This document shows positions 9,845 through 14,825 of a stretch of DNA of 14,825 nt, one piece after another. The position numbers were made by a program, and so were the translations under genes. How positions within the stretch are numbered: position 1 is the first letter of the stretch; each line of letters begins with the position of its first letter. Source of the DNA: a bacterium (GTDB lineage Bacteria; Patescibacteriota; Doudnabacteria; UBA920); NCBI GenBank assembly GCA_021789715.1, contig JAJYJE010000004.1:1-14825 (forward strand). The letters are read 5' to 3'. Below the pieces are notes generated by a model. The model searched no databases. It had not been told where the DNA came from and worked only from the letters and a program-made list of their open reading frames with translations.

Positions 9845-9853
9845 AAAATGCGG

Positions 9854-9881
9854 TTGCCAACTGGCATCACTCTTTTATTAT
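9854..9881 (+). promoter_or_regulatory. Promoter for the IMPase-like gene, with overlapping palindrome
   Basis: TTGCCA (9854-9859) and TATTAT (9876-9881) are separated by 16 bp, each a 5/6 match. The predicted start near 9888 lies upstream of the ATG at 9908 and downstream of the in-frame ATG at 9848, so it supports 9908 as the start. The dyad TGCCA-AC-TGGCA (9855-9866) overlaps the -35 box and could be an operator between the divergent genes. Confidence 0.55.
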
Positions 9882-9907
9882 TCCTACCTTTCCTCTATGA
9901 TAAGCTT

Positions 9908-10342
9908 ATGGACGCAAACGATCAATACCTTCAAGCCGCAGTAAGCGCAGCCAAAGAGGCGGGTAAAATTTTTCGGCGCTATTATGGACATCCGAAATTG
10001 GTGCAGACCAAGGGCGGTGATGCCAACAATTTTGTCACGGAAGTCGACGTCAGAATCGAACAACTGCTCCGCGCAATACTACTCAATAAATATCCTGACC
10101 ATAAAGTCATTGGTGAAGAATTGGGCTGGGACGCGATCGGCCGCAAGGATGCGGTCTGGATTATTGATCCTATTGATGGGACGACTAACTTTATCCATGG
10201 CATCGCTTATTGCTGCATATCCATCGCGCTGTGGGATAACCGCGGACCGCTGGTTGGCGTAATATATAATCCGACAACCAGCGAGCTGCTCACAGCCGCC
10301 AAAGGACGCGGCGCTCTGCTTAGGCTGGTCAAAAAAATCTGA
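9908..10342 (+). pseudogene. C-terminally truncated inositol-monophosphatase family gene
   Basis: IMPase-family enzymes remove phosphate from inositol phosphate or related sugar phosphates using two or three metal ions. The 144 residues contain the N-terminal hallmarks FVTEVD (42-47), GEE (69-71, metal-binding Glu) and WIIDPIDGTTNFIHG (84-98, with D87 and D90). They stop at TAAKGRGALLRLVKKI. Family members are about 250-270 residues long and need a second half with a WDxAAG-type motif supplying another metal-binding Asp; this is missing. The next plus frame after the end (about 30 residues to a TAA at 10412-10414) is not IMPase-like, so one frameshift does not restore the gene. The ATG at 9848 is rejected because it lies upstream of the promoter -10. 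Likely a non-functional remnant cut by rearrangement next to the accessory block. Confidence 0.75.
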
Positions 10343-11174: not shown

Positions 11175-12026
11175 CTAAAAGCTCATAACCTGGTGCTTGC
11201 CAAACTCCACCAACCGCTCATAGGTTTGGACCGTAGAAACATCAAACCACGATCCGTCGAACGAATAGCCGCCGAGCTTCCCTTCTTCGGCCAGGCGCGG
11301 CAACGACCCGCTTTCCAGCTTGAGATCGTCTTCGCGAATATAGCGGAACAGGCTTGGCTCGGCCACGTAAATCCCCGCATTGACCAAATGAGAATGCGTC
11401 TTGGGATTTTTTGGTTTTTCCTCAAACTCGACAATCCTGCTGCCGACCAGCCGCGCTACGCCCCACATGCTCACCCGCTCCACAGACGTTAGCGCCATAG
11501 TGCAGACCAGGCCGGTTTGGCTGCGGTGAAAATCGAGGAGATCGTTATAATCGATATCGGCCAAGACGTCGCCGTACAATAAAAGGAACGTGGACGCAAA
11601 ATGACTTTGTGCCTGTTTGACCGGCTGAGCCGTACCCTTTTTGCCCGTCTGCTGCTCCAAATATGAAATATTAAGATCCCAACGGGAACCGTTGCGAAAA
11701 TAATCTTTAATCTTTTGGCCGCCGTGCCCCAGCGAGATGACGATATCCGAAATGCCCGCAGCCTTAAGCTTAAGCAAAGTATGCTCAAGCAGCGGGCGGC
11801 CGTTAACCGGCAACAGCGCCTTAGGCGACTCCGGAACCAGAGACGAAAAGCTCACGCCTTTGCCGCCGGCCAAAATTAACGCCTTAATCGGTTTTTTCGC
11901 CAAAGCTTCTGCCAACACTTCTTCCAACGCGTGGGAACGGTTGCGAATAAGCCGGCCATCCACCATTTCATCGAGCTGTTTAAGCAGCTCGTTCTTTAAG
12001 GTTATTGTAATGCGTTTTCGGGCCAT
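11175..12026 (-). CDS. Ribbon-helix-helix domain fused to a sugar-phosphate nucleotidyltransferase
   Basis: The 283-residue protein joins two domains. Residues 3-43 (RITITLKNELLKQLDEMVDG ... ALEEVLAEAL) have the pattern of a CopG/Arc-type ribbon-helix-helix DNA-binding domain: an alternating beta strand then two helices with IRNRSHAL between. From residue 48 a GT-A nucleotidyltransferase follows: LILAGGKG (50-57), SPKALLPV (67-74), YGDVLAD (151-157, metal Asp D153), FEEKPKNP (201-208), VNAGIYV (215-221) and WFDVSTVQTY (260-269, second metal Asp D262). The usual GTRL of the nucleotide loop is replaced by GVSF, so the conserved Arg is lost. Relatives make NDP-sugars from sugar-1-phosphates. No Shine-Dalgarno precedes the ATG. 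The promoter is overlaid by two palindromes, so autoregulation is likely. It could be an active enzyme with a regulatory domain or a substrate-sensing repressor. Confidence 0.85.
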   Translation of the reverse strand: MARKRITITLKNELLKQLDEMVDGRLIRNRSHALEEVLAEALAKKPIKALILAGGKGVSFSSLVPESPKALLPVNGRPLLEHTLLKLKAAGISDIVISLGHGGQKIKDYFRNGSRWDLNISYLEQQTGKKGTAQPVKQAQSHFASTFLLLYGDVLADIDYNDLLDFHRSQTGLVCTMALTSVERVSMWGVARLVGSRIVEFEEKPKNPKTHSHLVNAGIYVAEPSLFRYIREDDLKLESGSLPRLAEEGKLGGYSFDGSWFDVSTVQTYERLVEFGKHQVMSF

Positions 12027-12050: not shown

Positions 12051-12100
12051 AGTATATCCGTTATGACGTATTGTCATATACTGTATGATAGTATCATACA
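12051..12100 (-). promoter_or_regulatory. Promoter and tandem palindromic operators of the RHH-nucleotidyltransferase gene
   Basis: A likely -10 TATACT (12051-12056) and -35 ATGACA (12072-12077) are 15 bp apart on the minus strand. Palindrome O1 is TATGACGTATTGTCATA (12062-12078) and overlaps the -35. O2 is TGTATGATAGTATCATACA (12082-12100), with 9-bp arms around one central base. Both share the half-site TATGA/TCATA, and their centres (12070 and 12091) are 21 bp, two helical turns, apart. This is the usual arrangement for cooperative RHH repressors. GTATATAC (12031-12038), nearer the ATG, is also self-complementary. Confidence 0.65.
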
Positions 12101-12564: not shown

Positions 12565-12579
12565 TCATACCAAGTATGA
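12565..12579. promoter_or_regulatory. Third TATGA/TCATA inverted repeat, between divergent genes
   Basis: TCATACCAAGTATGA is a perfect dyad (6-bp arms, 3-bp centre). It uses the same half-site as the two operators at 12062-12100, but in outward orientation (TCATAC first, GTATGA second). It lies 71 bp before the ATG at 12651. A TATAAT on the plus strand at 12529-12534 is a possible -10, but I see no good -35 for it. Confidence 0.4.
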
Positions 12580-12638
12580 CAGCCGCTAAGAAGATTATTG
12601 CTGCGCCCGTCATTCAAGGCAGCAAGAATTTTTCAGGA

Positions 12639-12643
12639 GGAGG
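12639..12643 (+). promoter_or_regulatory. Ribosome binding site fixing the start at 12651
   Basis: GGAGG within AGGAGGAGGA lies 7 bp before the ATG at 12651. It rules against the in-frame ATG at 12576, which would add 25 residues read through this site and the operator-like repeat. Confidence 0.8.
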
Positions 12644-12650
12644 AATAGCA

Positions 12651-13457
12651 ATGAAACTCTCAGCGGTTATGCTGGCCGGAGGCTATGGTTGCTTTCACGG
12701 GCCAAAAATGCAAAAAATCAGCAAGGTACTGGCCCACTTGGACGGTAAGCCGATGTTCAGCCGGATTGTCGACCAACTCATTTCCACCAAGCTTTTCAGC
12801 CGCTACTATGTAGTTACGAATCAAGATTACCATGAGCAGATAGCCCTGGCCCTGCGCGGGCATCCTGAAATCCGTTACGTCACGCAGACTCACAGGATCG
12901 GTTCGGCCGGAGCCGCCAAACTGGCTCTGGATCTAATGGAACCTGACGAACAGCATGCTTTGATCCAGTACGGCGATATGGGCTTTATTGAACTGGAAAC
13001 GTATCGCTGCCTGGTGGAACGCCATCTGTATCACGACCGGCCCCGCCTGACTTTAGCGACTATTCCCTACGTGCCGGGCACTCCGGTCGAAAAATATGGC
13101 CGCTTTATTTACGGCGAGCATGGCGAATTGCTTGGAACGGTAGACGACCCGCTTTGCGTGCCGAGAGGCAAATTTGTCCAGGCAAATAAAGCCAACCCCT
13201 CCCTCTACGTGGCCAATGTCGGCTGGCTAAAACAGCGGATTCCCCGTCTGCGCCCCGTAGACAAAGGCGACGGCTTCCCTAAAGAACGCCTGATGCAGGG
13301 TTTAATCAGCGCAGCCCGCCAACGCGGGGACCGCGTAGCTTGCGTTCATTTCAGCGACTATGAACAATTCCACGGCGTCAATACGCTTGAAGAACTTCGG
13401 CAAGCCCGCCGGCTTTTTGCCGCTCGTATCCAGCACCGCGAGCCGATCGCGGCATAG
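12651..13457 (+). CDS. GlmU-like nucleotidyltransferase with altered nucleotide-binding loop
   Basis: The 268-residue protein resembles the uridylyltransferase half of GlmU, which makes UDP-GlcNAc from GlcNAc-1-phosphate. Visible elements are MLAGGYG (7-13), SKVLAHLDGKPM (24-35, Lys25 in the place of the PKVLH lysine), GSAGAAKLAL (84-93, cf. GTAHA), QYGDMGFI (106-113, metal Asp D109), EKYGRFIY (147-154) and GVNTLEELRQAR (242-253). The GTR of LAAGKGTRM is replaced by GCF, removing the conserved Arg. There is no C-terminal left-handed beta-helix. The start is set by a very strong Shine-Dalgarno. It is divergent from the 105-residue gene and convergent with another GlmU-like gene, with a shared terminator. 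The substrate cannot be told; loss of the Arg may mean changed or lost activity. Confidence 0.8.
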   Translation: MKLSAVMLAGGYGCFHGPKMQKISKVLAHLDGKPMFSRIVDQLISTKLFSRYYVVTNQDYHEQIALALRGHPEIRYVTQTHRIGSAGAAKLALDLMEPDEQHALIQYGDMGFIELETYRCLVERHLYHDRPRLTLATIPYVPGTPVEKYGRFIYGEHGELLGTVDDPLCVPRGKFVQANKANPSLYVANVGWLKQRIPRLRPVDKGDGFPKERLMQGLISAARQRGDRVACVHFSDYEQFHGVNTLEELRQARRLFAARIQHREPIAA

Positions 13458-13544: not shown

Positions 13545-14285
13545 TTATTTTATAAGTTTTTCCGCCGTTTCCAACTCTTCCCTGGTATTTATGCCCAGCA
13601 CCTGTTCGGGCGGAACGCTAAAATTATGAACCCGCTCTCCTTGCGCAATGGCAACACCCACGATGTCAGTCAAGTAATATTCCTGTTGGACATTTTTGTT
13701 GCCGATATGTTTTAAGCTCTCCCATAACCACTTGGCGTTAAACATGTAAATCCCCGGATTTACTTCTTTGATTTTTCTCTGTACATCGGTGGCGTCTTTA
13801 AATTCGACAATGCCTATAATGTTATGATTAGGATCGCGCAAAATTCGGCCAAAATGTTCCAGTGAAGAGAATTTGCCGCGAAAATTATCCACCTGCGTAG
13901 TCAGCATGCTTATCTTGGCGCCGCTGTGCAAATGCATCTTAATTAGCTCACTCAGGCTCCCGGCCTTGATAAACGGCATATCGCCGTAGAGTACGACAAT
14001 ATTTTCCGCCCGGGCTTTCGACCGCGCTGCCTGTACCGCGTGGGCCGTACCAAGCTGCTTGTCCTGATAGGCATAGGAGTAGTGATTACCGAGCACGCCC
14101 TGGACTTTTTTCGCCTGAAAACCGACCACCACCACGGGCTTGGCCAGCTGATTAACCTTTTCAATCTCGTGGAGTACGTACAAAATCAGCGGCTTATTTT
14201 TCAGCATTACTAATACTTTGGGCACCGGCCCGTCGCCCATGCGCGTCCCCTTACCCGCGGCTAAAATGACAAATTGGTTTTTCAT
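13545..14285 (-). CDS. GlmU-type uridylyltransferase domain protein (NDP-sugar pyrophosphorylase)
   Basis: The 246-residue product carries the complete pyrophosphorylase active site of GlmU and relatives: LAAGKGTRM (8-16, diphosphate-binding loop with the conserved Arg), PKVL (22-25), QLGTAHAVQAA (77-87), LYGDMPFI (99-106, metal Asp D102), VNPGIYMF (175-182), QQEYYLTDIV (200-209) and GINTREELETAE (231-242). It probably joins UTP to an N-acetylhexosamine-1-phosphate. It lacks the C-terminal beta-helix acetyltransferase of full GlmU, so a partner would be needed for the acetylation step. The start at 14283-14285 gives the standard N-terminus, 4 bp after the stop of the upstream gene, pointing to translational coupling. 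A longer frame to 14372 would overlap that gene and is rejected. Confidence 0.92.
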   Translation of the reverse strand: MKNQFVILAAGKGTRMGDGPVPKVLVMLKNKPLILYVLHEIEKVNQLAKPVVVVGFQAKKVQGVLGNHYSYAYQDKQLGTAHAVQAARSKARAENIVVLYGDMPFIKAGSLSELIKMHLHSGAKISMLTTQVDNFRGKFSSLEHFGRILRDPNHNIIGIVEFKDATDVQRKIKEVNPGIYMFNAKWLWESLKHIGNKNVQQEYYLTDIVGVAIAQGERVHNFSVPPEQVLGINTREELETAEKLIK

Positions 14286-14289
14286 ATTT

Positions 14290-14825
14290 TTAATTAAAGT
14301 GTCGCAGATCCAACAGTACCGGATAATGATCTGATATTTTGTCCGTTTGTTGGGTAACAACAACCCCTGCACGAAATACTCTCTTAGCCAAGTCGTTTGT
14401 AGTGAATATATAATCTAAACGCAGCCGTGTAAAATGAAAAGGGTCTTTATTTATGCGGGTAGGGACCGAATAGATATCCTTTTTTTTCATATGCAGTTTA
14501 ACTACGTCAACCATCCCGGACTGCAAAATTTGCCCGATAACATCCCGAAGCAGCCTGTTTCTGCCAAACTTATAAATACGGGCCATATTCATTTTTTTCA
14601 ATATTGTTACCGGGTAAAAATCTTGGGGGGACAGAGCATTAAAATCTCCCAACAAAACGCAACGAATTTGCTTAGTAAAATAGGGTCTCAATTTTCCTAA
14701 CTCAGTTAGGCGCTCTTGTTCTCCCTTAGGTGACAGGTGAGTAATAATAAACCGAATGCGCCGCCTTCCGATTGTTTGAGCAACTACGGCGGCACAGTGA
14801 AATCCTTGATTTAACACCGCCACCT
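14290..14825 (-). CDS. Endonuclease/exonuclease/phosphatase family protein, C-terminal part
   Basis: This frame runs off the right window edge; at least 178 residues of the C-terminal part are visible. The EEP-superfamily motifs are in order: THLSP (about 28-32), LLGDFNALSP (57-66, catalytic D60 and N62), RLDYIF (135-140, D137) and SDHYPVLLDL (164-173, catalytic D165/H166). Such proteins are metal-dependent phosphodiesterases acting on DNA, phospholipids or other substrates, and the class cannot be fixed here. The N-terminal part with the catalytic Asn and Glu must lie outside the window. A GTG at 14821-14823 would be an improbable start because it removes that half. The next gene begins 4 bp after its stop. 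Confidence 0.88.
   Translation of the reverse strand, partial: VAVLNQGFHCAAVVAQTIGRRRIRFIITHLSPKGEQERLTELGKLRPYFTKQIRCVLLGDFNALSPQDFYPVTILKKMNMARIYKFGRNRLLRDVIGQILQSGMVDVVKLHMKKKDIYSVPTRINKDPFHFTRLRLDYIFTTNDLAKRVFRAGVVVTQQTDKISDHYPVLLDLRHFN

Follow-up and report, generated by a model that had tools for sequence, protein, structure and literature searches.

Trifunctional PutA carries an N-terminal ribbon-helix-helix (RHH) domain on a metabolic enzyme and is an autogenous repressor (PMC5293562), and CggR of B. subtilis, a member of the SorC family, represses the operon in which it is encoded alongside enzymes of glycolysis; its sugar-phosphate sensor is an enzyme-like domain resembling NagB (PMC11229326). 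Another RHH protein, NikR of E. coli, has GTATGA as its half-site (PMC7055735, PMC4486848). GMPPA, an inactive paralogue of GDP-mannose pyrophosphorylase, still binds GDP-mannose and is a feedback regulator (PMC11228364). Pyrophosphorylases of this class carry the signature GGXGXR(L)XPLX5PK, whose arginine is a main anchor of the phosphates; Mg is bound by two aspartates, and the lysine of the EKP motif contacts the phosphate next to the sugar (PMC9424295). The G, T and R of the loop in RmlA are described as catalytically important, and a T-to-A change lowers the activity (PMC8044546). RHH and nucleotidyltransferase are also described as separate parts of toxin-antitoxin systems (PMC6393860).

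The window, by which we mean the whole stretch of 14,825 nt that was analysed (positions 1 to 14,825 of contig JAJYJE010000004.1, assembly GCA_021789715.1, Doudnabacteria; an uncultivated bacterium with a small genome), carries a gene in which an RHH domain is fused to a sugar-phosphate nucleotidyltransferase. The preliminary description of this DNA took small sensors to be the usual fusion partners of RHH domains, and this premise is too strong because PutA joins an RHH domain to a large enzyme and represses its own gene (PMC5293562). The enzyme of PutA is an active proline/P5C dehydrogenase, whereas that of the fusion is a nucleotidyltransferase without the catalytic loop, and Pfam finds the RHH part and no proline or P5C dehydrogenase domain in the fusion. 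CggR has neither an RHH nor a nucleotidyltransferase domain, its DNA-binding and sensor folds differ from those of the fusion, and no SorC or NagB domain was found in the fusion by Pfam or among the 25 of 47 NCBIfam matches listed. GMPPA acts on a partner enzyme and we know of no role for it at DNA, whereas the fusion is proposed to act at DNA. A sensor account of the fusion thus has precedents in GMPPA (a dead NDP-sugar sensor), PutA (an RHH-enzyme repressor) and CggR (an enzyme-derived sensor). The combination of RHH with a dead pyrophosphorylase as a regulator, like any RHH-nucleotidyltransferase fusion or its regulon, has no earlier description among the literature matches listed, subscription papers lying mostly outside the search.

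Fusion gene and predicted protein

The gene, its domains and its nucleotidyltransferase-like neighbours are as follows.

11175..12026, minus strand: RHH-nucleotidyltransferase fusion gene (ORF, Pfam, full-length orthologues)
11895..12014, minus strand: ribbon-helix-helix domain, residues 5-44, with the strand RITITL (Pfam RHH_1, sequence match to NikR, model)
11214..11885, minus strand: sugar-phosphate nucleotidyltransferase domain, residues 48-271, a likely sensor
12576..13457, plus strand: second nucleotidyltransferase-like neighbour with the degenerate loop GGYGCFHG and no RHH match (profile searches)
13545..14372, minus strand: GlmU-N-like nucleotidyltransferase neighbour with an intact GKGTRM loop, in contrast to the fusion (profile searches)

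The fusion ORF runs in a single unbroken frame of 283 aa from an ATG at 12026 to a stop codon ending at 11175, and the plus strand across 11175..12026 is interrupted by stops. Pfam assigns RHH_1 to residues 5-44 (E 6e-5; 23.2 bits, above the cut-off of 20.5), the profile being covered in full (positions 1-39 of 39), and NTP_transferase (PF00483) to residues 48-271 (E 1e-33), so that the joining of the two domains in one frame, as originally read from the letters, is borne out by the ORF and by both profiles. The predicted monomer structure (pLDDT 91.3, pTM 0.85) consists of an extended segment (residues 1-10), two helices (12-21 and 30-43) and then the nucleotidyltransferase fold. Residues 1-45, with a pLDDT of 86-93, therefore show the beta-alpha-alpha order of the RHH fold that had been suggested for them. 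In this monomer model, segment 1-10 is not scored as a strand, as is expected of a sheet that forms between two chains.

The genes next downstream of the fusion in the window are short and have no Pfam match. By visual inspection, degenerate nucleotidyltransferases resembling the 12576-13457 protein are found close to the fusion in L021, L022, L023, L024, L026 and L028, and the window protein could be a partner pseudoenzyme of the fusion. We also note an inositol monophosphatase ORF on the plus strand (9848-10342), whose 164 aa match the profile no further than position 141 of 271. The 18 other proteins of the cluster have 211-334 aa, and the ORF is likely to be truncated or frameshifted.

Distribution and conservation of the fusion

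The genome set comprised 60 whole genomes, namely our own genome and 59 relatives. A full-length fusion was found in 20 of them, that is, in our own and in 19 of the 59 relatives (46-73% identity), and one further genome has a copy cut at a contig end. This survey of the same domain order supports a genuine fusion, and an assembly artefact is ruled out by its presence in 20 of 60 genomes, our own included. A scan of 84,980 species gave 278 places encoding a relative of the fusion; a search of viral contigs found none. Among the best 80 of the 278 relatives, those with a named group belong to CPR bacteria (Doudna-, Buchanan-, Uhr-, Falkow-, Kerfeld- and Gottesmanbacteria and others) or to archaea usually placed in DPANN (Altiarchaeota, Aenigmatarchaeota and Parvarchaeota).

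These best 80 and the window copy gave an alignment set of 81 copies, of which 69 are bacterial (the window included) and 12 archaeal; L074, which is broken in frame, was counted with gaps in residue tallies. The RHH part is more conserved than the enzyme part, with a mean pairwise identity of 57% against 47% and the higher identity in 89% of pairs. The motif RNRSHAxE is invariant in the 81 copies, which is partly built in because the motif is one of the two search seeds, and the 19 aligned copies that were retrieved without seeds show no variation in it either.

The putative operator

The putative operator of the window consists of the following elements.

12083..12099, no strand: perfect inverted repeat GTATGATAGTATCATAC, putative operator, the only such site in its own genome
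12062..12098, no strand: four TATGA/TCATA half-sites at 12062, 12074, 12084 and 12094 (steps of 12, 10 and 10; sequence, and a period common to the relatives)

The near end of GTATGATAGTATCATAC lies 57 nt upstream of the fusion start codon, and GTATGATA repeats are visible in the regions upstream of fusion genes. We counted TATGA pairs at every spacing from 0 to 15 within 250 nt upstream of the fusion genes, basing the counts on exact patterns that miss degenerate sites. Spacings 5 and 15 stood out (direct N5 in 36 loci, inverted N5 in 8 and direct N15 in 11), and all other spacing classes were found in at most 3 loci each. The pattern TATGA-N5-TATGA/TCATA is present upstream in 42 of 69 bacterial and 0 of 12 archaeal loci, so that 27 bacterial loci have no N5 pair; the archaeal loci have the N15 spacing in 5 of 12. 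Thirty dinucleotide shuffles of the upstream regions gave a mean of 0.07 and a maximum of 1 locus with an N5 pair, and among upstream regions of other ORFs such a pair was found in 9 of 1131, several of which are candidate targets. The units thus follow a period of 10 or 20 bp, which would fit RHH dimers lined up along one face of the helix.

When the two patterns were searched in the 60 genomes, GTATGATANNRTATGA was found in 17 and GTATGATANTATCATAC, with one mismatch allowed, in 7 including our own, and the reversed-pattern controls of both gave 0. Fusion and operator were both present in 18 genomes and both absent in 38, with 3 genomes having the fusion only and 1 the operator only (Fisher p = 2.5e-11, related genomes not being independent). 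Among 26 GTATGATANNRTATGA sites, 17 lie within about 500 nt upstream of the fusion and 3 upstream of the aminotransferase-type gene next to it (G001, G014), the remaining 6 being elsewhere; our own genome, 78% complete, has the operator once, before the fusion.

The operator-only genome, G016, is 69% complete, and three tandem half-sites (L204:1335-1365) stand there before an ORF that is HAD-like by eye; a similar site precedes a HAD gene in L022. That G016 holds a decayed fusion copy was considered and rejected, as tblastn near its operator gave no convincing remnant (best E 0.28). In G070 (Paceibacterota), a fusion-like paralogue (L182:1168-1968, minus strand) is preceded by an operator and followed by a gene resembling mannose-1-phosphate guanylyltransferase; the RHH part of this paralogue was recognised by eye, Pfam finding just NTP_transferase. 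We also asked by eye whether an R-to-K change at RHH residue 5 covaries with a changed half-site, and the idea was dropped: of the copies with K, L087 and L094 have altered repeats, but L057 and L081 keep TATGA.

Among solved proteins, the best match of the RHH part is E. coli NikR (1q5v; E 1.3e-4; strand KRITITL against QRVTITL). The putative operator of the fusion and that of NikR have the GTATGA half-site in common, and the RHH ancestry and the motif, found independently, agree. The NikR operator is GTATGA-N16-TCATAC, whereas that of the window is GTATGA-N5-TCATAC with a 10-bp period, and the fusion differs from NikR also in having no NikR_C metal domain (PF08753). This domain had 0 matches in the 60 genomes, and NikR as the owner of the operator is ruled out for the genomes searched.

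Another explanation is that the GTATGATA repeats are tandem -10 elements, or the site of another regulator, and that the RHH domain serves solely to dimerise the enzyme. TATGAT does resemble a -10 box, and 18 of 42 loci have TTGA[CT] at a distance of 10-30 nt before the first half-site, 9 of them at exactly 16 nt, against a background of 9% of random 25-nt windows; the window's own operator has no TTGA[CT] at this distance. However, the inverted TATGA-N5-TCATA copies of 8 loci cannot both be -10 boxes of the same strand, 74% of sites have a G just before the first TATGA, and the sites track the fusion across genomes and recur before unlinked genes. With respect to another regulator, a different small RHH_1 protein is encoded in 7 of the 19 operator-bearing genomes, including our own, and could own the operator in those 7; in the other 12, no RHH_1 match besides the fusion was found or none passed, and the half-site matches that of NikR, the solved RHH protein closest in sequence, with no NikR sensor domain present in the 60 genomes. 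We consider this explanation very unlikely. The operator most likely belongs to the fusion protein, whose binding is predicted from these sequence comparisons, and a 17-nt spacer would put the -10 element inside the operator, which points to repression.

Loss of the catalytic loop and retention of the pocket

The site of the presumed loss of catalysis in the window is the following.

11847..11867, minus strand: degenerate phosphate-binding loop GGKGVSF, residues 54-60, where active enzymes have GGxGTR[LM] (alignments; PMC9424295)

The fusion has the fold and most active-site residues in common with RmlA, MurU and GMPPB, and differs from them in its gained RHH domain and in its lost GGxGTR loop: Val-Ser replaces Thr-Arg in the window, the phosphate-anchoring arginine of the GGXGXR signature being thereby absent, and GTR is missing from 66 of 69 bacterial copies, the window included. 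GTR is kept in 3 of 69 bacterial against 12 of 12 archaeal copies. The arginine itself is absent at the loop position in 60 bacterial copies and kept in 9, so that 6 copies without GTR still hold it. The rest of the pocket is retained, as K69 and D153 are conserved in 81 of 81 copies each and K204 and D262 in 77 of 81 each; the window has the Mg-binding aspartates D153 and D262, the EKP lysine K204 and, alongside them, the PK lysine.

The tree was constructed from 80 copies, with L074 left out, and was rooted at the midpoint, by which the direction of change is not settled. The archaeal copies form one group within the CPR diversity, next to 2 of the 3 GTR-type bacterial copies, and two changes of the GTR label suffice. 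A deep branch including a GTR-type bacterial copy comprises L068 (Wirthbacteria) and its relative L075, in which the aminotransferase-type gene of the Doudnabacteria fusion loci is also found near the fusion. Among 37 other nucleotidyltransferase ORFs in the fusion neighbourhoods, 17 have GxGTR; by eye, the remainder are 10 with GKR or GRR, 7 with other loops, which look like one second family, and 3 fragments or spurious ORFs.

These residues bear on the possibility that the fusion has remained an active sugar-nucleotide pyrophosphorylase and doubles as an autogenous repressor in the manner of PutA, making an NDP-sugar and repressing its own gene when substrate or product is bound. The conserved aspartates and lysines of the pocket are consistent with activity, as is lysine, the commonest replacement of the arginine (33 of 81 copies), which could leave some activity in some copies. 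The archaeal copies keep GTR, and the gene directly after the fusion belongs to a phosphomanno/phosphoglucomutase cluster in 7 of 12 archaeal loci. In the window, however, a main phosphate anchor of the enzyme class (PMC9424295) is lost with the replacement of Thr-Arg, an intact-loop nucleotidyltransferase lies near the fusion, and the mutase cluster is found in just 1 of 69 bacterial neighbourhoods. We therefore regard an active enzyme as unlikely here. The archaeal copies resemble a catalytically active, self-controlled NDP-sugar enzyme accompanied by its mutase, whereas in most bacterial copies the chemistry seems to be gone and the pocket to remain, with neighbours that are often central-carbon genes.

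Candidate targets in related genomes

The GTATGATANTATCATAC scan gave 15 distinct palindromic sites, of which 5 lie before the fusion, 4 before an ORF beside the fusion, 4 near a distant aminotransferase gene and 2 elsewhere. The ORFs beside the fusion form one cluster in G001, G011 and G018 (PF00155 aminotransferase in the two members scanned), and that of G021 is of similar size and outside the cluster. The distance from site to called start reaches about 580 nt in G011 and 850 nt in G018. In the same four genomes, a palindromic site lies within 50 nt of the distant aminotransferase gene, which is of the PRK07568 type in the one scanned and alike by eye in the other three.

In 49 more distant fusion-bearing genomes, a relaxed pattern gave 49 sites against 12 for the reversed control. 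In three Uhrbacteria genomes, sites stand before a glutamate dehydrogenase gene followed by a PEPCK-type gene (a scan named one pair, and the other two look alike by eye). A Woesebacteria genome has a site before an aldolase gene, behind which GAPDH was recognised by eye, and a Gottesmanbacteria genome has one before galE, with a GalT-like gene (by eye) after it; further sites precede genes for a PfkB-type kinase, a type II GAPDH-like protein and a HAD hydrolase. Some matches precede ruvA, a ribosomal gene, unrelated genes or no clear gene. In G104 (L094), whose fusion is of the GTR type with no N5 pair upstream, the relaxed pattern has six matches, placed upstream of ruvA, a ribosomal-protein ORF and further ORFs (named by eye).

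In the 69 bacterial loci, the gene directly after the fusion is a member of the PGK cluster 6 times, of the GAPDH cluster 5 times and of a GlpX-like cluster 3 times, and these 14 loci constitute the likeness to CggR; one member each of the PGK, GAPDH and mutase clusters was scanned, and GlpX was named by eye. Of the 69 bacterial loci, 20 have a TrmB-type HTH regulator (one member scanned) in the vicinity of the fusion.

The neighbourhoods can also be read in another way, namely that the protein regulates cell-surface sugar synthesis only and that central-carbon genes surround it merely because gene order is conserved. GlmS-like genes are present near 14 and YvcK-like genes near 16 of the 69 bacterial loci (named by eye), and galE and the PfkB-type kinase gene carry operators, which is in favour of this reading. 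Against it, operators also stand before genes for aminotransferase, GDH-PEPCK, aldolase-GAPDH and type II GAPDH that are not linked to the fusion, and we judge a role restricted to the cell surface quite improbable. As the same operator stands before genes of gluconeogenesis, glycolysis and amino-acid carbon entry in relatives, the fusion probably couples these genes to sugar-nucleotide supply there. For the window's own genome, autoregulation is the only regulation supported by the sequence.

Proposed function and its meaning

Of the two options first offered for this fusion, a metabolic enzyme or a degenerate one used as the ligand sensor of a transcription regulator, we favour the second by inference, basing on the lost loop, the kept pocket and an operator that is conserved and tied to the fusion across genomes. 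The fusion is probably a one-component autoregulatory repressor, with a non-catalytic nucleotidyltransferase as its likely sugar-nucleotide sensor. The RHH domain is predicted to bind the GTATGA repeats before its own gene, where RHH dimers would occupy adjacent half-sites on one face of the DNA, cover the -10 and spacer region and block transcription. The nucleotidyltransferase domain, in which the catalytic arginine is missing, would act as a sensor of a nucleotide sugar or sugar-1-phosphate and no longer as its producer. Once bound in the dead pocket, this ligand would determine how tightly the RHH dimers hold the repeats, by which genes feeding hexose synthesis may be tuned to sugar-nucleotide supply.

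A broader proposal, to which we give slightly less than even credence, is that the family is an undescribed regulator of central carbon metabolism in CPR bacteria, in which an autoregulating NDP-sugar enzyme of the archaeal type lost catalysis, retained its pocket and was turned into the NDP-sugar sensor within a NikR-like repressor of gluconeogenic and glycolytic genes, a counterpart of CggR made from different parts. To our knowledge, the regulation of central metabolism in CPR bacteria is largely unknown. The fusion family offers a candidate CPR regulator together with a defined operator and a list of targets, all open to in vitro tests, and it places active-looking enzymes (archaeal copies) and presumed pure sensors (most bacterial copies) on one tree, with NDP-sugars as a candidate signal for transcription.
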